Below, one piece after another: positions 1 to 6,939 of a DNA stretch of 6,939 nt (position 1 is its first letter; the number at the start of each line of letters is the position of its first letter). Made by a program: the position numbers and the translations under genes. The DNA is from Oscillospiraceae bacterium (GTDB lineage Bacteria; Bacillota_A; Clostridia; Oscillospirales; CAG-272): assembly GCA_015064425.1 (NCBI GenBank), contig SVSF01000093.1, forward strand, positions 1 through 6,939, read 5' to 3'. The notes beneath the pieces were generated by a model that made no database searches, was not told the DNA's origin, and saw nothing but the letters and a program-made list of their open reading frames with translations.

Positions 1-415
1 CTGTTGCTTCAAATCCTTCGGGAGCGGATGTTACTACCCACTTATCAAACTCGAAACCTACGGGAGCTGTGAATCCAAACTCATCAACTGTGTAAGCATC
101 ATTCATCTTGAGGCCTTCGTCAGCATAACTGTCGCCGCTGCCTTCGCCTGCTTCATAGGTAACTGTGTAAAATACGTTCTTGTAAACCGCTGTGAGTACG
201 ATATCGCCTGCGGGCATTGTGAAGTCTTCGCCGCCGCGGAACTCTGTTGCTTCAAATTCTACAGGTGCGTATGTTACTACCCATTTATCAAACTCAAAGC
301 CTACTGGAGCCGTAAATCCGAATTCGTCTACTGTATATCTGTCTTTTTCTTCGAGACCATCATCTGCATAGCTCTCACCTGTACCTTCACCCGGATCGTA
401 AGTTACTGTATAGTA
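1..415 (-). repeat. Tandem 243-bp (81-residue) coding repeat, second copy cut by window edge
   Basis: Two consecutive B-repeat units follow each other with an exact 81-codon period: bases 1-10 (ctgttgcttc) recur at 244-253, and the YTVDEFGFTAPVGFEFDKWVVT stretch is identical in protein. Synonymous differences are scattered through the DNA (for example cccactta versus cccattta), so the copies are old enough to have diverged silently while the protein was conserved. More copies probably follow beyond the left edge. Confidence 0.85.
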
Positions 416-1921
416 TACGGGTTCGGGCTCAGGCTCTTCAATCTTTTCCCACTTAGCGTAAAGGTCTGTGTTTCCTACTACTGTGAAATTGTCATCAGCT
501 GTGTATTCAACTGCGCCTCTCTCGGAAAGTGCCCAACCAATAAACTTGTATCCGCTATTCTCGGGAAGCTGCGTCTCTGCATAATCAAAGACTTCGTGTA
601 CTTTTCCCGTAATCGCATCTACGCTATATACATCTTCTGCACCCTCAAAATTAGGATGGTAACTAACCTTTACGGAAAGATTGGTAACAAAACAGTCAAC
701 GTGGATATCAGCCTTTTTACCGTTGTCATCATATCCGTAATAATTTCCGTTGCTTCCTACGTAGTCAAGTGCTTCCTGTACTTTAACTACGTATGCGGTA
801 ATGTTAACGTTTTCGGAACTGATGTTGAATTCTGTCCAAAGTCCCTTCCAATCTGTAGGAAGAATAATACCCTCGTTGCTTGTTACGAGAAGCATATCTC
901 CTATTTCAAGCTTATTATCGCCGTCAGAAGCTGCAAGCTTTGCAAGGAATGCATCCGTAAGACCGCCCTCAATATTTGCCTCATAGTAGTAACGGAAATT
1001 CTTCACGATTCCGCCGGGATAATAGCTGTTGATACCCTGATCAGCGCCGTCAAGGGGAACTGTCTTTTCGGGATTGAGAACATAGAACTTGACGGGAATG
1101 GAAATTGTTTCTCCTTCCTCTTCTTTGGACTCATCCTCTACATACTGTGCGGTAAGAGTTACGTTACCTGCAGGCATTGCAAACTTATCGCCTGCTGCGT
1201 ATGTGTTGCCGTTAATATCGTATATTGCGGAATTATCTTCGCACTCCGTTACCTTCCAGCCCGCAAATACTTTACCTTCGGGAGCTGCAAAGCCAAATTC
1301 ATCAACTGTATATTCATCTGCAAACTGAAGCTCGCCGTCCGTATAGCTCTCACCTGTTCCTTCACCTGCTTCATAGCTTACACTGTAATATACGGGAGTG
1401 TTATCCTCTTCGCTGACCTTCTCAACAGTGATCATTACGAAGTAGTTGCTTGCATGGCTTGAGTGATTGCAAGCGGTTGCTACTGTAAATCCGGAAATAT
1501 TTACGTTCTTTGATCCTATAGAAGGAGTTGCATTGTAAGCTGCACCTTCGTTGTAGGTTCTGCAGCTATAGGGGTTTGCTCTGTTTCCGGAGCCGCCCGT
1601 ACTGCAAAGCGAGTCAACGGAAACGATACGGTAACCCTCAGCGGGAGTAACTATAATATCCGCAGAACCGTTGCCCGAGAGCGTTTGGGTACCGCCGAAT
1701 CCCCATGCAGAACCGTTATAAGTTACTGTCGCAAGATTAAGATTTTTTGTGTGATCGTTGCTTGTACTTACATAGTCATAGCACCAGTGAAGAGTTACGT
1801 TTTCTTCACGGTCGTATCTGTTATCTCTTGCTGCCAGTATACCGGTTGCAAATGTTCCTGTGAGTGTCGTCATAAAAAGTAAAAGTGCGATCACTCTTAA
1901 AAATGTTTTTCTGATTGCCAT
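1..1921 (-). CDS. Secreted InlB B-repeat (Listeria-Bacteroides repeat) protein, C-terminus outside window
   Basis: Seen: an uninterrupted frame of 640 codons from the ATG at 1921-1919 to the left edge, so the gene is partial. The start has an AAGGAG site 9 bases upstream. Residues 1-31 form a signal peptide: basic n-region (R4, K5, R9), hydrophobic core VIALLLFMTTLTGTF, cleavage probably after A25 or A31. Residues 32-170 are a beta-rich N-terminal region with Cys at 47, 106, 120 and 150 that I do not recognise. B-repeat units lie at about 178-261, 503-583 and 584 to the edge, each with a YxVxYxxGEG start, a YTVDEFGF core and a final MPAG(D/N)(V/I)xLTA. Residues 421-491 resemble a shorter B-repeat (YKFIGWAL...TDLYAKWEK), followed by a PEPEPEP linker. 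Known: such repeats are ubiquitin-like folds used as stalks in secreted or surface proteins. Inferred: extracellular or cell-surface role, possibly adhesion. Any sorting signal or dockerin would be off-window. A c-di-GMP riboswitch lies in its leader. Confidence 0.92.
   Translation of the reverse strand, partial: MAIRKTFLRVIALLLFMTTLTGTFATGILAARDNRYDREENVTLHWCYDYVSTSNDHTKNLNLATVTYNGSAWGFGGTQTLSGNGSADIIVTPAEGYRIVSVDSLCSTGGSGNRANPYSCRTYNEGAAYNATPSIGSKNVNISGFTVATACNHSSHASNYFVMITVEKVSEEDNTPVYYSVSYEAGEGTGESYTDGELQFADEYTVDEFGFAAPEGKVFAGWKVTECEDNSAIYDINGNTYAAGDKFAMPAGNVTLTAQYVEDESKEEEGETISIPVKFYVLNPEKTVPLDGADQGINSYYPGGIVKNFRYYYEANIEGGLTDAFLAKLAASDGDNKLEIGDMLLVTSNEGIILPTDWKGLWTEFNISSENVNITAYVVKVQEALDYVGSNGNYYGYDDNGKKADIHVDCFVTNLSVKVSYHPNFEGAEDVYSVDAITGKVHEVFDYAETQLPENSGYKFIGWALSERGAVEYTADDNFTVVGNTDLYAKWEKIEEPEPEPVYYTVTYDPGEGTGESYADDGLEEKDRYTVDEFGFTAPVGFEFDKWVVTYAPVEFEATEFRGGEDFTMPAGDIVLTAVYKNVFYTVTYEAGEGSGDSYADEGLKMNDAYTVDEFGFTAPVGFEFDKWVVTSAPEGFEAT
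1139..1390 (-). repeat. Divergent upstream copy of the B-repeat unit
   Basis: Residues 178-261 of the secreted protein align with the tandem units nearer the C-terminus: YSVSYEAGEGTGESY, EYTVDEFGFAAPEG and the closing AMPAGNVTLTAQY. It differs by an ECEDNSAIYDINGNTY insert where the others have APVEFEATEFRGG. It is separated from them by a roughly 240-residue stretch of different character (275-500). Confidence 0.75.
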
Positions 1922-1961
1922 GATTTCAATCTCCTTAAAAATTATTTTTTGATTGAAAATC
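1922..1961 (-). promoter_or_regulatory. Putative expression-platform hairpin enclosing the Shine-Dalgarno
   Basis: On the minus strand GATTTTCAATC (1961-1951) can pair with GATTGAAATC (1931-1922) in ten pairs with one bulged U. The loop contains a possible AAAAA/TTTTT inner stem and AAGGA of the ribosome binding site; the last G of AAGGAG is in the helix, which ends directly before the ATG. The 5' arm GATTTT can instead pair with AAAATC (2046-2041) or GAAAA (2038-2034) next to aptamer helix P1, so the two folds compete. There is no GC-rich stem plus U-tract, so translational rather than transcriptional control is favoured. Mechanism is inferred; the complementarity is seen. Confidence 0.6.
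1931..1936 (-). promoter_or_regulatory. Ribosome binding site of the secreted B-repeat protein
   Basis: AAGGAG lies 9 bases before the ATG at 1921. It fixes the start and sits in the loop/bulge of a potential hairpin (1922-1961), so it is probably the output of the riboswitch. Confidence 0.85.
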
Positions 1962-2040
1962 AGGCGGCCGAGCCATCATAGCTTTTGCCTTAGACCTCTT
2001 GCTTTGCGTCCCGACGTTTCCATCGGTTTGCCTTTTTCTT
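1961..2040 (-). promoter_or_regulatory. Cyclic di-GMP-I (GEMM-I) riboswitch aptamer
   Basis: Read on the minus strand, the conserved GEMM-I blocks occur in order: AGGCAAACC (2033-2025), a six-pair hairpin CCGATG-GAAA-CGTCGG (2026-2011) capped by a GNRA tetraloop, the invariant GGGACGCAAAGC (2012-2001), GGTCTAAGG (1996-1988), then TATGATGG and CGGCCGCCT (1980-1962). P1 is AGGC (2033-2030) with GCCT (1965-1962). The second arm has a tetraloop receptor UCUAAG (1994-1989) / UAUGA (1980-1976) around a GC-AAAA-GC cap. This is the classical CCUAAG/UAUGG receptor with its closing C-G replaced by U-A, a compensatory change. The family binds c-di-GMP between its two parallel helices. The regulated gene is the secreted B-repeat protein, whose ATG is about 40 bases beyond P1. 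Confidence 0.92.
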
Positions 2041-2041
2041 G

Positions 2042-2070
2042 ATTTTAATAAAATTTTTTATGCTTTAATG
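2042..2070 (-). promoter_or_regulatory. Possible weak promoter for the riboswitch transcript
   Basis: TAAAAT (2047-2042) is a five-of-six match to a -10 box and would start transcription near 2035, just before aptamer helix P1. No convincing -35 is seen (CATTAA at 2070-2065 with 17-base spacing). The alternative is read-through from the small gene upstream, since no terminator separates them. Confidence 0.3.
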
Positions 2071-2477
2071 TTTACGCTTTCTACTGCACTGTTCATAAGG
2101 AAGATAAGTTCAAGCACGCTCCTAAAACTTTCCTCCACACCGCCCTCTATCCAGGACACTGAGCCCTGCCAGCTGGCATTTTGTCGGAAGAGAACTTTCA
2201 CGGTAAACGTTGCAAGTTCCCCGCATTTGACTCTGTTCGCCTCCGTATCCTCTGATATGCATCCTTTACCGGGTACAAACTTTCGAATTTCGGAAAACGA
2301 TTGGGGGAAATTCATATCGTCTAAATCGTGCTGTGCTATATTCAGCATATCAAAAAGACAAGCGAAATTCCTGCCATCCGGATTAGCTGCAGTGAAGATC
2401 TTCCCTTTTGGCACACCCGACTCGCAGGAGTCTATACAGAACAACATAGTTCTTTGAGATTCGCCTCTTATGCTCAC
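2058..2477 (-). CDS. Conserved clostridial small protein of unknown function (139 aa)
   Basis: The start is GTG at 2477-2475, chosen because AAAGGAG lies six bases upstream; stop is TAA at 2060-2058. No signal peptide or membrane segment; it should be cytoplasmic. Two conserved-looking parts are visible. Residues 11-68 run MLFCIDSCESGVPKG...FPQSFSEIRKF. Residues 90-131 run TFTVKVLFRQNASWQG...W(I)EGG-EESFRSVLELIFLMNSA. I recall both patterns from many clostridial hypothetical proteins, but no function. The C-terminal part is a compact strand-strand-helix. An opposite-strand ORF covers nearly the same bases, but the ribosome binding site and the family-like protein favour the minus strand. Its stop is only 17 bases before the c-di-GMP aptamer, so it may be the first cistron of the same transcript; a link to c-di-GMP is only suggested by position. 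Confidence 0.8.
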   Translation of the reverse strand: MSIRGESQRTMLFCIDSCESGVPKGKIFTAANPDGRNFACLFDMLNIAQHDLDDMNFPQSFSEIRKFVPGKGCISEDTEANRVKCGELATFTVKVLFRQNASWQGSVSWIEGGVEESFRSVLELIFLMNSAVESVNIKA

Positions 2478-2483
2478 TCCATT

Positions 2484-2490
2484 CTCCTTT
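2484..2490 (-). promoter_or_regulatory. Ribosome binding site deciding a GTG start
   Basis: AAAGGAG with six-base spacing (AATGGA) to the GTG at 2477. The ATG at 2493-2491 that overlaps it is in another frame, and the next in-frame ATG (residue 11) has no comparable site. Confidence 0.75.
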
Positions 2491-2510
2491 CATCTTGTGT
2501 TTACGCCATC

Positions 2511-2516
2511 ATTATA
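2511..2516 (-). promoter_or_regulatory. -10 box of the small-protein gene
   Basis: A perfect TATAAT on the minus strand would start transcription near 2504, 27 bases before the GTG. The -35 position has no TTGACA-like hexamer; it is occupied by direct repeats of a TAACCGRATC motif, which suggests an activator-dependent promoter (inference). Confidence 0.55.
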
Positions 2517-2520
2517 CCCG

Positions 2521-2587
2521 GATCCGGTTACAGATTCGGTTACTTTTTTAAAAACTTCTTTCATTTTTTAAAAATTTTAACCGAATC
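2521..2587. promoter_or_regulatory. Three-copy GATYCGGTTA motif, putative operator
   Basis: GATCCGGTTA (2521-2530) and GATTCGGTTA (2533-2542) are direct repeats with a 12-base period. A third copy in inverted orientation, TAACCGAATC, lies at 2578-2587. The second and third extend to a perfect 11-bp inverted repeat (2532-2542 / 2578-2588) around an AT-rich spacer that contains TTTTTTAAAAA twice. Relative to the minus-strand -10 the direct repeats cover about -17 to -38; the inverted copy is about 54-63 bases upstream of the plus-strand start. The protein that binds is unknown. Confidence 0.5.
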
Positions 2588-2605
2588 TAAAGATGCTCTC
2601 AGGAC

Positions 2606-2634
2606 TTGACCTGTTTTGGAAATTCATATATATA
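2606..2634 (+). promoter_or_regulatory. Candidate plus-strand sigma-A promoter
   Basis: TTGACC (2606-2611) and TATATA (2629-2634) are 17 bases apart; TATAAA two bases further on is an alternative -10. Transcription would begin near 2641 and could run to the terminator at 2951-2978, giving an RNA of about 330 bases. Nothing else in 2641-2771 is recognisable. Confidence 0.45.
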
Positions 2635-2771
2635 AATAATAAGTTTTTCGGAATAAAAACAGAAATTCCCGGTCTAATGTATAAAAGTGAAAAACAAAAC
2701 CCGAGTACAAAAACCCTATGAAATGAGAAATGCTGAATTAAACGACTTACCTCAATAATTCTGAGTTTGTT

Positions 2772-2963
2772 ATGTGTATTACTTACGCAGCCTGTGCGGT
2801 GCATGAAAAGATCGGAGTCTCGGACATAACCGGCGACCCCTCTACCGAATCAGAACTTAATACCGAGAAAGAGACAGAAGATTCTCCAAAAGTATACCAA
2901 AAGCAAGAAGTATCCGAAAAAAGGTCCCCTTATCTTGGCAGGCATAAAAACAAGGCAGGATAA
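2772..2963 (+). CDS. Doubtful small ORF (63 aa), hypothetical
   Basis: An ATG ORF with an alternating hydrophobic start (MCITYAACAVHEKIG) and a highly charged, probably disordered remainder rich in E and K. I do not recognise it. In favour: a candidate promoter at 2606-2634, and a stop codon lying in the loop of a strong terminator. Against: only a weak TGAG ribosome site, a long 5' leader and no known family. The open frame reaches back to 2742 without another start. A short overlapping ATG frame at 2723-2758 (MRNAELND...) in a different phase raises the possibility of a frameshifted remnant. The transcript could equally be non-coding. Confidence 0.3.
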   Translation: MCITYAACAVHEKIGVSDITGDPSTESELNTEKETEDSPKVYQKQEVSEKRSPYLGRHKNKAG

Positions 2964-2978
2964 CCTGCCTTGTTTTTT
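2951..2978. terminator. Bidirectional rho-independent terminator
   Basis: A perfect nine-pair stem CAAGGCAGG (2951-2959) / CCTGCCTTG (2964-2972) with a four-base loop is followed by six T on the plus strand (2973-2978) and by five T on the minus strand (complement of 2946-2950). It starts four bases after the stop of the GldG-type gene, so it ends the ABC operon, and its loop holds the TAA of the small plus-strand ORF. Confidence 0.92.
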
Positions 2979-4443
2979 ATTTCATTCTGCGTTTTTTGTT
3001 TATGTATAATCCGTAAGTTATGAAAAGTGCGGGAATCACCACAATAAGGAGAATTGCGATTGCAGTACGCTGAGTCGAGGTTATGTCAAGTCCATCATAG
3101 CCTATGATCTTGGCACGTGCGGTACTGCTTTCCTTTTCTGTAAGATGAGCGGTCAGCACAGAGATAAGCGATGAGTTGCCTCCAGATGCAAAATCGTTAA
3201 TAGAGCTATCCGCAAAGGAGTCAGAGGCTATCCATGCAAGCTCTGAAATTCCGTCTCCCGCTTCTTTTGAAGCAATCACCGCCATACATATGGGCCCGCC
3301 TATATCGCCCTCAGTTTTGGAATAGCTTTCAGCTGTAGAGGAATAAGGTCTCAGGAAAGAGTTTGCAGAACTCATACAAAGCTCTGTAAATTCTATGCTT
3401 CCGTCAAGTCCTTCCGTATAGGCTACACCTGTACTAAGCTGAAATATGGGTTTTACCTCCATTTCTCTCAGAGCCGCTACCGCTTCTTCGTCCTTTATGT
3501 CTGAATGTATAACGTAAGGTATTGCGGAGCCGTTATATTGAAACATATAGCTTGGATCGGTATCAAGTATAACGCCCTCGTTATTCCGGAGTCCGTAATC
3601 GGCAAGCAAAAGCTTGAGATTGCTCATATCCGTTTTGGGGTTATTATTGTAAATTAAAAGGAGTTTTCCGCCTTTTCCGAGATATGTTCTCAAAGCATTT
3701 AACTGTGCTGTAGTCAAATCCTTTGTAGGATTTGATATTACAACGCATTCCGCATCATCGGGCACAGTACCCGCAAGAGCAAGCAGCTCATAGCTTATGT
3801 TGCTTGTCCCGAGAGATGAAAGCATAGCCTCGTCAAATACAAGTTCGCCGTTTGCATTGGTGTAATATGCTTTGGGAAGTCTCTCTGCTGCCACGTATTC
3901 GATGGCGGCATATATCTCAGCCTCAAAATCAAAGCTCTGCGTGTATTTAAGATTTTCGTAGTCCACGCCAAACTCAAATATATCGAGGTAATCCACTACC
4001 TTATATCTCTCGCCGCTTACCACTATAATGCTGTTTTCCGTTGCGGAGGATGCTCCGTATTTGGAAATAAGCACCGCATCTCCTTTGGGATCTGCATTGT
4101 ATCGGTCTATCTTTGAATTAAGATCACATACAGAATCCAATGCGGATCTTATATATGGATTTTCATTTCCGTATGCGGCTATAAGATATATATCTATATC
4201 GGCATCAACTTCGGATATCATTTCTTTCGTATGCTCGGTAAAGGTAAAGAAATCCGAACGGCTGGTATCTACCTTTGCAAATCTTCCAGGCAACATTGAT
4301 ATAAGGATGTTTGCCACTATGACCGTCGCTGCGACAAGAAGACATATAAGGGAGACGTAACCGCCTATCATCAAATATTTTCTGTTTATCTTTCTCTCGT
4401 CCAATTTCATTTTTCTCACCGTCCTTATGTCTTTCAGTTCCAT
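2977..4443 (-). CDS. GldG-type ABC transporter auxiliary protein (membrane-anchored)
   Basis: A 488-residue protein with an N-terminal membrane segment (about 28-51), a long extracytoplasmic region and a second membrane segment near the C-terminus (about 459-481) followed by KKRRMK. The stretch after the first segment, VDTSRSDFFTFTEHTKEMI, matches the D-x-T-x-x-x-x-(Y/F)-(T/S)-(L/F)-(T/S) entry of the ABC_transp_aux/GldG family. VVISNPTKDLTTAQLNALRTYLGKGGKLLLIYN is the family's GATase-like core. Third gene of the operon, overlapping the permease by ten bases. An in-frame ATG at 4410 (residue 12, MKLDERKINRKYLMIGGY) is preceded by AAGGACGGTGAG and could be the real start, leaving a 23-base gap. 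Known: GldG works with GldA and GldF in Bacteroidetes gliding. In Firmicutes the substrate is unknown and gliding should not be inferred. The DUF4340 gene often found next to such operons is absent here. Confidence 0.85.
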   Translation of the reverse strand: MELKDIRTVRKMKLDERKINRKYLMIGGYVSLICLLVAATVIVANILISMLPGRFAKVDTSRSDFFTFTEHTKEMISEVDADIDIYLIAAYGNENPYIRSALDSVCDLNSKIDRYNADPKGDAVLISKYGASSATENSIIVVSGERYKVVDYLDIFEFGVDYENLKYTQSFDFEAEIYAAIEYVAAERLPKAYYTNANGELVFDEAMLSSLGTSNISYELLALAGTVPDDAECVVISNPTKDLTTAQLNALRTYLGKGGKLLLIYNNNPKTDMSNLKLLLADYGLRNNEGVILDTDPSYMFQYNGSAIPYVIHSDIKDEEAVAALREMEVKPIFQLSTGVAYTEGLDGSIEFTELCMSSANSFLRPYSSTAESYSKTEGDIGGPICMAVIASKEAGDGISELAWIASDSFADSSINDFASGGNSSLISVLTAHLTEKESSTARAKIIGYDGLDITSTQRTAIAILLIVVIPALFITYGLYINKKRRMK

Positions 4444-5312
4444 CTCTTCTTTTCAAGGACCTGGGTACCGAAGAAAAGGAAGAGAAAAATAAGCGAAATG
4501 AAATAGAAGAGAGTTCTCAGGTCAAAGACTCCGTATATGAAATAAGTGAACCTCTGATATACTGAGAGCATTCCCAAGAATTTTGCAAAGCCGTTTACAA
4601 ATATAGACTGATCTATAAGGTATACCATAAGTATTGCTATAACCATTAAAGCAAAAGCAAACAGACTGACAAGTTTATTTTTTGTAAGGAGATATACTAT
4701 TATAGCAGCAAGAGCCGCAAGTGCCGCAAAAGCAAAAAGCGATACAAGAGCCGATGCTGGGAAAAAACTGCTTATTCTCGGCATAAGACACAGCACAAGC
4801 AAAGCGGCAATACTGATAAAAGCCGCATTTATCGGATTATCCGTGAGGCAGGATATAAAAAGTCCTATAGCTATAAATACCGTTCCGGTAAGAAAGAATG
4901 CCAAAAGCGAAGAATACTCATTTCCATATCTCACGGTTCCGAACGCCGAAAGCATGAGCGGGTAAAGACACATTACGGCGCATGGCACCGCAAATACGGT
5001 AAGTGCCGCAAAATATTTTCCGAGTATTACCTTATACATTTTTATAGGCAATGAATATAAAAGTTTGTCCGTTTTCTGTGCTTTTTCATCTGCCACAAGT
5101 CTCATGGTAAGCACGGGCACCGCAATTGCAAGAATAAGCAAAACACTCGGAAGCAGAGCCGAAAATGCGGTATTGGAGCTTGCGGAAGCGCTGTCATTGA
5201 AATTAAGATATACACTCAATACGCCGACAAAGAACAAAACGAAGGCTATAAACACATAACCGCTGATACCGCTGAAATAAGATCTCAGTTCTCTTTTATA
5301 TATAGCTGACAT
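4434..5312 (-). CDS. ABC-2 type permease, GldF/NosY-like
   Basis: A 292-residue integral membrane protein with about six to eight hydrophobic segments (around 18-36, 51-70, 98-122, 133-156, 161-178, 186-209, 214-233, 266-284). Family signs are the N-terminal amphipathic IYKRELRSYFSGISGYVF, the cytoplasmic VLTMRLVADEKAQKTDKLL (about 67-85) that contacts the ATPase, and the C-terminal FTYFIYGVFDLRTLFYF. Role: the transmembrane half of an ABC exporter or membrane-remodelling complex; substrate unknown. Its ATG overlaps the ATPase stop as TAATG, so translation is probably coupled. Its own TGA lies inside the next gene's start region. Length is usual for the family. Confidence 0.9.
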   Translation of the reverse strand: MSAIYKRELRSYFSGISGYVFIAFVLFFVGVLSVYLNFNDSASASSNTAFSALLPSVLLILAIAVPVLTMRLVADEKAQKTDKLLYSLPIKMYKVILGKYFAALTVFAVPCAVMCLYPLMLSAFGTVRYGNEYSSLLAFFLTGTVFIAIGLFISCLTDNPINAAFISIAALLVLCLMPRISSFFPASALVSLFAFAALAALAAIIVYLLTKNKLVSLFAFALMVIAILMVYLIDQSIFVNGFAKFLGMLSVYQRFTYFIYGVFDLRTLFYFISLIFLFLFFGTQVLEKKRWN

Positions 5313-6358
5313 TATTCCTCATCCTCCGTATCTTTTCCAAAAAGCGGCGTATACTCTTCCTCGGCGTCTTCCTCATCATTCTCGCCGTCAGGTTCCGTTA
5401 ATATCTCGGGCTTTGTTTCCTCCGAGGCGATCTGTTCAGCCGTTAGCTTGAGGAACACATCCTCAAGTGACATCGTTGTATTGACCATGCTTACAATAGG
5501 GTATTCAAGAGCGGAAAATTCGAAGAAAAGACGCTCCTTTATATCGCAATTTTTTTTGTATTCGATATGTATCTTTTTGTATTCTCCGTCCTCGGCTATT
5601 TCATAGAAGGATATTTCCTCGATATCATTTAACGTCATCCTTATACGGTTTACGTCTCCTCTTACACGGAGCTCAAGACTGTTGACGGTAATATATTTTT
5701 CCGATATCTCTTCAAGGGTTCCCTCTGCAACAAGCTGACCTTTGGAAATAATAATGAGGCTATCGCAGATCTCTTCCACTTCCGAGAGTATGTGAGAGCT
5801 TAAAATGACCGTGCGATCTTCTTTAAGAGAAGATATTATCTCTCTCGTCTCAATAAGCTGTTTAGGATCAAGTCCTACCATAGGTTCGTCAAGTATAACT
5901 ATATCGGGATCTCCGATAAGAGCCTGTGCTATGCCAACCCTCTGCCTGTACCCTTTGGAAAGATTCTTTATGAGTCGGTCTTCCACTTGTTTTAAGCTGC
6001 ACAGGTTCAAAAGTTCCTCAACGCAGTTGTCTCGCTCCGTTCTGTCAAGTCCCTTGGCGTCAGCAACAAATGAAAGAAATTCACGAGGACTCATATCCGT
6101 ATAAAGTGGAGGAATTTCGGGAAGAAAACCTATTTTCCTTTTTGCTTCGTCTCTGTCCTTGTATATGTCAAGTCCATCTATCTCAACAGTACCATCTGTA
6201 GCAGACAGACATCCCGTCATTATATTGAGAGTAGTAGATTTTCCTGCCCCATTAGGACCTAAAAATCCGTATATTTTGCCTTTTTCCGTTTTAAACGAAA
6301 GATTTTTTACAGCATAATTTTTGCCATACAGCTTCGTTATATTTTTTACTTCCGTCAC
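5312..6358 (-). CDS. ABC transporter ATP-binding protein, GldA-like
   Basis: A 348-residue ATPase starting at GTG (6358-6356) with GAGGTGA nine bases upstream. Motifs: Walker A GPNGAGKST (34-42), Q-loop position occupied by Glu in GFLPEIPPLY (77-86) as in GldA relatives, signature LSKGYRQRVG (133-142), Walker B IVILDEP (153-159), D-loop GLDP (162-165), switch His in SSHILSEVEE (H189). Residues about 225-310 form a C-terminal accessory domain of the kind seen in ABC-2 drug and Gld ATPases. After it comes an unusual acidic tail (about 320-348) rich in D and E. It energises the permease encoded directly downstream; complex at the inner face of the membrane. The three genes form one operon under the promoter at 6403-6408. 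Confidence 0.94.
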   Translation of the reverse strand: MTEVKNITKLYGKNYAVKNLSFKTEKGKIYGFLGPNGAGKSTTLNIMTGCLSATDGTVEIDGLDIYKDRDEAKRKIGFLPEIPPLYTDMSPREFLSFVADAKGLDRTERDNCVEELLNLCSLKQVEDRLIKNLSKGYRQRVGIAQALIGDPDIVILDEPMVGLDPKQLIETREIISSLKEDRTVILSSHILSEVEEICDSLIIISKGQLVAEGTLEEISEKYITVNSLELRVRGDVNRIRMTLNDIEEISFYEIAEDGEYKKIHIEYKKNCDIKERLFFEFSALEYPIVSMVNTTMSLEDVFLKLTAEQIASEETKPEILTEPDGENDEEDAEEEYTPLFGKDTEDEE

Positions 6359-6367
6359 CCTTAGATC

Positions 6368-6374
6368 TCACCTC
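6368..6374 (-). promoter_or_regulatory. Ribosome binding site of the ABC ATPase
   Basis: GAGGTGA nine bases before the GTG at 6358. It supports the GTG start, since no in-frame ATG is close by. Confidence 0.7.
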
Positions 6375-6402
6375 TGTATTGATAGTTTAACGTATATATA
6401 TA

Positions 6403-6433
6403 ATTATAGCACAGAATGTGTCTTTTGTGTGAA
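6403..6433 (-). promoter_or_regulatory. Extended -10 promoter of the ABC operon
   Basis: TGCTATAAT on the minus strand combines a perfect -10 (6408-6403) with an extended TG. A -35-like TTCACA (6433-6428) is 19 bases upstream, a long spacing that an extended -10 tolerates. Transcription would start near 6396, giving a leader of about 38 bases with no obvious structure. Confidence 0.65.
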
Positions 6434-6516
6434 GATATGAAAAAAATTCCAATAGAAAAAGGCACATAAGGGGTGTCTTCCATAAAGCAGGTTTTACCTA
6501 CCATAAAAAACAAATT

Positions 6517-6545
6517 TGTAGGGGCGACCACTGGTCGCCCCTACA
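6517..6545. repeat. Perfect 29-bp palindrome, intergenic repeat type
   Basis: tgtaggggcgacca (6517-6530) and tggtcgcccctaca (6532-6545) are perfect inverted arms around one base. GC-rich palindromes opening with TGTAGGGGCG are, as far as I recall, dispersed between genes in Ruminococcus-like genomes. No T-tract follows, so it is not a standard terminator. Confidence 0.7.
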
Positions 6546-6549
6546 TTAC

Positions 6550-6584
6550 AAAAGGACAGAGATTTTTTCGTATCTGTCCTTTTT
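6550..6584. terminator. Terminator-like hairpin between the repeats and the ABC operon
   Basis: AAAAGGACAGA (6550-6560) pairs with TCTGTCCTTTT (6573-6583) around a 12-base loop, with a T-run on the plus strand (6580-6584) and TTTT on the minus strand. It can work in both directions and would keep minus-strand transcription from the transposase side out of the ABC operon. It could also be the terminator of a gene once located to one side. Confidence 0.55.
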
Positions 6585-6651
6585 CATACGACTTGCATGG
6601 CAAGGTATAGTGTGTTACACCTTTTAGGCGTACTATCGGGCGGCAACATAG

Positions 6652-6752
6652 CCTTCCTCCGGGAGGAAGGTGGCACGCGGCAGGGGTTCCCCGAAGCGAA
6701 TGAAATGAGCTTTGGGGGTTCGCTGCGTAGCGTGACGGAAGGAGCCCGCGTG
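6652..6752. repeat. Structured GC-rich intergenic repeat (putative dispersed element)
   Basis: Nested inverted repeats within about 100 bases: ccttcctcc/ggaggaagg (6652-6660/6662-6670), an outer pair cacgcgg (6674-6680) with ccgcgtg (6746-6752), ggggttcccc near 6683-6692, and cgct-gcgt-agcg around 6721-6732. Composition is clearly more GC-rich than the flanks. It has the look of the non-coding repeats scattered in Oscillospiraceae. An overlapping minus-strand frame (6541-6777) appears to be chance. Confidence 0.55.
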
Positions 6753-6790
6753 ACTTAAAATTCAGATTAAACTTCATTGTAACGCGCTCT

Positions 6791-6815
6791 CCCTCACCCG
6801 ACTTCGTCGGGAGGG
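6791..6815. repeat. Hairpin abutting the transposase end
   Basis: CCCGAC-TTC-GTCGGG (6797-6811) with outer CCCT/AGGG arms (6791-6794/6812-6815). No T-tract. It ends only eight bases from the transposase stop codon, so it is either the insertion target or part of the neighbouring repeat element. Confidence 0.55.
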
Positions 6816-6822
6816 CAAATTG

Positions 6823-6939
6823 TCAAGCAAGTGCAACACCAAAAAATGCTTCAAAAGGCGAAAGCCAGCCCAAACATTTTTTTGGTCTCAAGTTAATAGA
6901 TAAAACAATATTTTGCAAGGTTTCATTATCCAAGGAATG
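6823..6939 (-). CDS. IS30-family transposase, C-terminal fragment (N-terminus outside window)
   Basis: Reading minus from the right edge gives 38 residues and a TGA at 6825-6823. They include INLRPKKCLGWLSPFEAFFG, which matches the conserved C-terminus of IS30 transposases (N-x-RPRK-x-LG(W/Y)-x-(T/S)P-x-E-x-F). The catalytic DDE residues lie upstream and outside the window, so whether the element is intact cannot be judged. The usual end is close to the stop, so the terminal inverted repeat is probably within about 6816-6840 (caaattgtcaagcaag...), unverified because the other end is not in view. Confidence 0.8.
   Translation of the reverse strand, partial: HSLDNETLQNIVLSINLRPKKCLGWLSPFEAFFGVALA

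Follow-up and report, generated by a model that had tools for sequence, protein, structure and literature searches.

In Clostridioides difficile, class-I c-di-GMP riboswitches such as Cd1 are described as transcriptional OFF switches (PMC11477304, PMC6366702), and according to a review of the riboswitches of this organism transcriptional platforms are the ones that Gram-positive bacteria favour (PMC11477304). The class-I aptamer Vc2 from Vibrio cholerae is called translational and OFF in one report (PMC9262584), and its mechanism is called unknown in another (PMC4744006). Contact residues described for the Vc2 ligand are G20, A47 and C92 (PMC4744006). Position 20 is described as the base at issue in the 3',3'-cGAMP variant of GEMM-I, where A replaces G (PMC9481103, PMC6274999). 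In the account of a cGAMP switch, P1 ends in a C after the J1/3 contact C, and J1/2 has six bases (PMC6274999).

Here we describe a locus from an Oscillospiraceae bacterium (contig SVSF01000093.1, positions 1 to 6,939; this whole stretch of 6,939 nucleotides is called the window). Like the C. difficile switches it carries a class-I aptamer in a member of the Clostridia, and like Vc2 it appears to act on translation. Its predicted sense is opposite to that of the C. difficile OFF switches: the class-I aptamer is followed by a short, conserved start-codon lock, and the whole is most likely an ON switch with a compact translational platform, a reading to which folding models and comparative evidence lead us to assign a probability of roughly 0.8.

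Results

A c-di-GMP-I aptamer had been claimed in a first-pass annotation of the window. The covariance model RF01051 (c-di-GMP-I, GEMM-I) indeed matched the minus strand from 2042 to 1960 with 72.9 bits (gathering threshold 35, E 2.4e-13) and over its full length (model positions 1-87 of 87). By covariance alignment, the ligand contacts G20, A47 and C92 are all present in the aptamer, and we take them to be G2032, A2005 and C1964; C1963 is presumably Vc2 C93, the C that closes P1. From the P1 and J1/2 layout of the cGAMP switch, a C1963-G2038 pair and a J1/2 comprising 2037-2032 were predicted for the window, and the C1963-G2038 pair is found just below the pocket. Position 20 is G in all seven leaders compared below (GGCAAACC) and not the A of the cGAMP variant. 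By each feature open to testing the element belongs to the c-di-GMP-I family, and c-di-GMP is its predicted ligand. Two other Rfam candidates in the window were rejected, as they scored far under their cut-offs (rivX, 24.2 bits against 100; HOTAIRM1_3, 17.8 bits against 37).

Table 1. Features of the riboswitch locus, in window coordinates.
Feature	Position	Strand	Basis or remark
ORF139, conserved gene of unknown function, upstream of the switch	2058..2477	-	ORF list and homology
P1 5' strand (antisequester)	2038..2054	-	G2038-C1963, A2040-U1962, 2041-2046 with 1961-1956
c-di-GMP-I (GEMM-I, RF01051) aptamer	1960..2042	-	covariance-model score
Switch strand GCCUGAUUUUCAAUC	1951..1965	-	3' strand of P1 or 5' strand of start-codon hairpin
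Shine-Dalgarno AAGGAG, mostly within hairpin loop	1931..1936	-	sequence and folding
3' strand of sequestering hairpin, GAUUGAAAUCAUGGC, with start codon 1921-1919	1917..1931	-	folding; seven of seven leaders
Probable secreted surface protein, at least 640 aa, runs off contig	2..1921	-	signal-peptide-like N terminus (by eye), Flg_new

Two alternative helices can be drawn from the RNA around the aptamer end. P1 consists of G2038-C1963 and A2040-U1962 followed by AAAAUC (2046-2041) paired with GAUUUU (1961-1956), with one bulged A. This is the pairing of GATTTT with AAAATC on the 5' side that had been proposed from the sequence; a weaker outward extension, with a 5' strand up to 2054, is possible. 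The competing hairpin joins 1965-1951 to 1931-1917 (GCCUGAUUUUCAAUC with GAUUGAAAUCAUGGC, one bulged U per strand), and the complementarity of 1951-1961 with 1922-1931 that had been pointed out before forms the middle of this longer helix. The identical helix was obtained on folding 2075-1900, 2075-1880, 2060-1890 and 1965-1917. Alone, the hairpin has a free energy of −11.8 kcal/mol, and its pair probabilities range from 0.94 to 1.00, except for 0.48-0.75 in the U-run 1959-1956. It buries the last G of AAGGAG, the spacer, two bases of AUG (A and G) and the initial two bases of codon 2. The first-pass annotation placed AAGGAG inside the hairpin, but its view that the ribosome site itself is buried has to be amended: the start codon and spacer are paired, and most of the SD core falls within an apical loop of 19 nt (0.83 unpaired on average), the last G of AAGGAG alone belonging to the helix.

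As P1 and the hairpin use the same strand, 1963-1956 serves one or the other and never both. The hairpin also captures C1964 and C1963, by alignment the contact C92 and the P1-closing C93. The idea of a switch strand common to both helices holds, with the refinement that this strand extends as far as the ligand pocket (C92, according to the alignment).

The platform measures only 38 nt from the aptamer end to AUG. No hairpin resembling an intrinsic terminator lies between the aptamer and the start. This bears on transcription attenuation, in which premature termination instead of start-codon access would be controlled, a mode suggested by the terminator-like hairpins that our own script found beside 34 of 44 other tabulated class-I aptamers (L144 included). 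Against it stand the lack of such a hairpin in the window between aptamer and start, the lack of a U-run after the sequestering hairpin, and the presence of start-codon bases among the paired bases in all seven leaders; we regard attenuation as very improbable. Rho-dependent effects of blocked translation are conceivable. An SD-preceded start at most 45 nt away was present for only three of the 44 aptamers (L117, L129 and L144, the start of L129 being doubtful); 19 of the 44 came from a pattern requiring a nearby GGAG. L117 carries a c-di-GMP-I-GGC aptamer (1455-1539) 27 nt before a TTG-start frame of 51 aa, which looks by eye like a SinI-type anti-repressor and whose SD may pair with the last bases of the aptamer. 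Six further loci (L444, L445, L446, L449, L450 and L457) have two above-gathering class-I aptamers each, most of them arranged in tandem, ahead of other genes whose starts are signal-peptide-like; a possible third aptamer was seen by eye in L450.

The pairings of the window were compared with chance. SD-preceded ATGs open for 100 codons, rather than annotated genes, were taken as comparison starts from 80 Clostridia loci. Equal stability together with start-region pairing was seen in 8 of 746 such starts and equal stability in 1 of 162 GC-matched ones; a Watson-Crick run of at least 8 between the corresponding strands occurred in 5 of 747 (1 of 307 GC-matched). The hairpin energy was reached by 70 of 1000 dinucleotide shuffles of the short linker, by 159 of 1000 when the SD was kept, and by 15 of 1000 mononucleotide shuffles of the platform. 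P1 of the window was no better than chance (pairing reached in 292 of 2000 shuffles, and in 541 of 1000 with a shortened strand). An inverted-repeat search of the window returned no ungapped repeat of at least 9. These window-alone statistics are weak to moderate and by themselves suggestive only, so that the homologous leaders decide whether the competing pairing is real.

Seven leaders were compared, that of the window and six others (L144, L415, L417, L420, L421 and L451), four found via the upstream gene ORF139 and two via aptamer patterns; none was chosen for its hairpin. The ORF139 search returned 30 loci, all of which were scanned with Rfam, and a class-I aptamer was present in four (L415, L417, L420 and L421). 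The aptamers of L415, L417 and L421 belong to RF01051, and that of L420 is best matched by c-di-GMP-I-GGC (RF03167, 60.1 bits against a cut-off of 59). A strict aptamer pattern, which misses leaders with CTAAAG, CTACGG or CTAAGA, matched in 4 of 394 and 13 of 391 genomes. In viral contigs it had four matches, among them L144 (65.1 bits; start codon 36 nt past the aptamer; an ORF139 relative upstream, 49% identical), which, once found in this way, was singled out by its short spacing. A looser aptamer pattern applied to 49 genomes of one family matched 16 places in 9 genomes and added L451, whose aptamer was confirmed by Rfam (80.6 bits). With tblastn, ORF139 matched in the loci of all six leaders at 42-53% identity (E 6.6e-35 for L144, 3.7e-35 for L415, 3.4e-33 for L451 and 1.3e-34 or better for the others), but since L415, L417, L420 and L421 were found through this gene, its presence is an independent observation only for L144 and L451.

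Matches to a loose compact pattern were mostly due to chance, and a stricter regular expression run on the fetched loci left only the four earlier viral-contig matches. As a source of leaders, the surface protein gave four homologous proteins including the query, and no match in genome_contigs, viral_contigs or plasmids; a search of 30 genomes with it produced matches confined to the repeat part, in 6 of the 30. An RF01051 search of 16 genomes found none, and its 14 controls likewise gave no match. Phage DNA searched with 201 bases gave no match.

In all six further leaders ATGGC follows the last GCC of the aptamer at a distance of 33 to 49 nt. L415 and L417 have an in-frame ATG directly before it (ATGATGGC), so that their start may sit one codon earlier, still within the helix. 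The hairpin between GCC and AUGGC forms in seven of seven leaders, with −11.4 to −18.4 kcal/mol. Its columns were fixed by anchors because the MAFFT alignment misplaced L417. In these columns 86 of 91 pair cells are canonical, and two-sided changes are present at 4 of 13 positions (-8, -7, -2 and -1; at -1 the leaders show C-G, G-C and A-U); as the leaders form two sequence groups (window, L420 and L421; L415, L417, L144 and L451) and L415 and L417 have identical start-region letters, independent changes are fewer than these counts suggest. Canonical pairing and changes were matched by 24 of 5040 whole-strand permutations and by 0 of 5000 column shuffles, kinship being ignored in both. Sliding the register left 11-31 of 56 pairs canonical, compared with 51 in the true one, and when ranked by duplex energy the true strands fell within the top 36 of the 5040 permutations (top 10 of 720 for six leaders).

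The alternative helix is kept as well. A P1 duplex is present in all seven leaders, with C93 at or adjoining its start, and the true pairings were among the best 32 of 5040 permutations (88 of 5040 without C93; 1 of 720 for six leaders). Within each leader, the 5' strand of P1 is similar to the start region (score 44 against a mean of 36.4, reached by 70 of 5040 permutations) and, judged by its letters, appears to be a mimic of that region. The switch reading in the first-pass annotation had been made to depend on homologous leaders that conserve the complementarity; all six do so with changed letters, and they retain the alternative P1 in addition.

With these data a further explanation can be weighed, namely that a real aptamer stands beside a constitutive start-codon hairpin that merely sets a low basal translation, with no switching by ligand. 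It would fit the much higher stability of the hairpin than of P1 in the model. However, P1 is made from the same strand in seven of seven leaders and both helices track the changing letters of this strand, and we give very little credence to a constitutive hairpin.

Discussion

The strong aptamer and the retention of both competing helices in all homologous leaders found support the proposal that this is a translational switch. In silico, sequestration of the ribosome site and a bound aptamer are mutually exclusive in seven of seven leaders through the shared strand, and it is from these exclusive folds that we infer the ON direction. In the absence of ligand, 1965-1951 would leave P1 and pair with 1931-1917, so that both start codon and spacer would be buried and 30S binding blocked. 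If c-di-GMP binds to the nascent aptamer, C1964 (C92 by alignment) would be held in the pocket and P1 (1963-1956 with 2038-2046) stabilised, so that the hairpin could not be completed and the start site would be open. The surface protein would then be made at high c-di-GMP.

Folding energies set limits to this ON mechanism. Opening of 1936-1917 costs 7.7-9.9 kcal/mol in the free RNA compared with 3.8-4.7 kcal/mol in the P1 state (three RNA lengths). Before any ligand energy is counted, the P1 state is 11.0-12.6 kcal/mol less favourable than the free ensemble, a gap that is probably too large for equilibrium control; kinetic, cotranscriptional control must therefore be assumed. When growing RNAs were folded, the hairpin core appeared at about 1926 and was complete at 1917, which would leave some 40 nt of transcription for the aptamer to bind first. 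A dependence on transcription speed is likewise part of the model published for two related GEMM switches (PMC9262584). P1 must form, as 6.4-6.9 kcal/mol of start-region structure remains if merely the pocket is kept free. In the free fold the native P3 stem was hardly formed (probability 0.01-0.10 at every length tried). In the modelled ON state the SD was unpaired with a probability of 0.71 and 0.77 at two RNA lengths and of only 0.24 with the 3' end at 1890, where it pairs with coding sequence; this pairing at one of three lengths is a weakness of the model.

The opposite direction has to be considered. In an OFF switch the bound aptamer would keep or favour the start-codon hairpin and c-di-GMP would lower translation, in line with the OFF behaviour described for the C. 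difficile switches (PMC11477304, PMC6366702) and Vc2 (PMC9262584), and the fold leaves room for the Rfam P2 and P3 helices alongside the hairpin. The hairpin, however, pairs C1964 and C1963 and takes the whole P1 3' strand, the alternative P1 is kept in seven of seven leaders, and the pilM GEMM switch, in which the folds of aptamer and terminator also exclude each other, is described as ON (PMC9262584). An OFF switch at this locus is therefore improbable, and an ON switch is the direction assumed in what follows.

The gene behind the switch was expected to encode a secreted B-repeat protein. Its frame opens at ATG 1921 with an N terminus that by eye is signal-peptide-like, and it contains a Flg_new (Listeria-Bacteroides) B-repeat (E 1.4e-11), in agreement with this expectation. 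Three relatives (P0002-P0004) end in LPXTG-like C-terminal anchors with scores of 23.6-34.6, whereas NCBIfam sets its cut-off at 48; at E 0.01 the PDB gave no relative of the protein or its domain. Flg_new in the window is replaced by MucBP in L420 and L421, VWA in L415 and L144, and Big_2 in L417, and the L451 protein has no Pfam match; the downstream frames of all six relatives run off the fetched loci. These domains and the LPXTG-like ends of the relatives of the window protein suggest an adhesin function.

Of 394 genomes sampled within one order, 46 carry a member of the ORF139 family. The window copy has no Pfam or NCBIfam match at E 0.001, and an AlphaFold model from two sequences reached a mean pLDDT of 36.3. 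The family has FRQNASWQG and FRSxLEL motifs, and in the loci read its frames, counted from the first M, span 125-199 aa. In L413 and L439 a relative of ORF139 precedes a signal-peptide-like gene without a c-di-GMP-I match. From the ORF139 stop to GGCAAACC there are 25 nt in the window, 24 in L420, 44 in L421, 57 in L415 and L417, 51 in L451 and 155 in L144. In the window and L420 the gap is almost too short to contain a promoter, so that the switch may be part of a message spanning the two genes; a promoter could also lie within ORF139. We consider it rather probable that uncultivated Clostridia share a conserved cassette composed of an ORF139-family gene, an intercistronic class-I switch with a start-mimicking P1 5' strand and translational ON control, and unrelated surface proteins behind it. 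Elsewhere in the window lie an ABC transporter set (6358-2977, minus strand: ATPase, permease and ABC_transp_aux protein), the ATPase of which has at most 57% identity to its best 80 relatives from genome_contigs, and, between genes at 6517-6545, the palindrome tgtaggggcgaccactggtcgcccctaca, by eye like short dispersed repeats.

The class-I aptamer is of a known kind and the platform appears to be new; in the literature searched, which covers few subscription journals, such a translational start-codon lock was not found. The lock precedes several unrelated surface-protein families, which are predicted to be turned on at the level of translation as c-di-GMP rises. If this holds true, a translational ON class-I switch would be added to the Clostridia, where the described ones are transcriptional OFF switches, and ORF139 would be tied to c-di-GMP-controlled surface display. 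Moreover, the element offers a compact, easily built RNA for studying c-di-GMP occupancy versus start-site folding during transcription.

Among the described systems, the pilM GEMM-I switch of Geobacter metallireducens provides a parallel in mechanism, as it is ON by mutually exclusive folds in which the P1-pairing strand is captured by a competing hairpin (PMC9262584). It differs by having a terminator and by responding to cGAMP, whereas the hairpin of the window buries the start codon and a G (G2032) occupies position 20. Bc1, upstream of Bacillus thuringiensis mcpE, is likewise reported to hold the start codon within structure in one state; in contrast to the window, it possesses two terminators, and the state that buries the start codon is the one with ligand present (PMC11218506). 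In target and sense, the window resembles Bc2, a class-I ON switch before the surface adhesin gene cap (collagen adhesion protein) of B. thuringiensis, which unlike the window acts by terminator and antiterminator (PMC4933901). Vc1, a class-I element upstream of V. cholerae gbpA, positively controls a secreted colonisation protein; according to its authors neither a terminator nor an anti-SD is apparent and the mechanism is unclear (PMC4744006), whereas the sequestering helix of the window is explicit and conserved.
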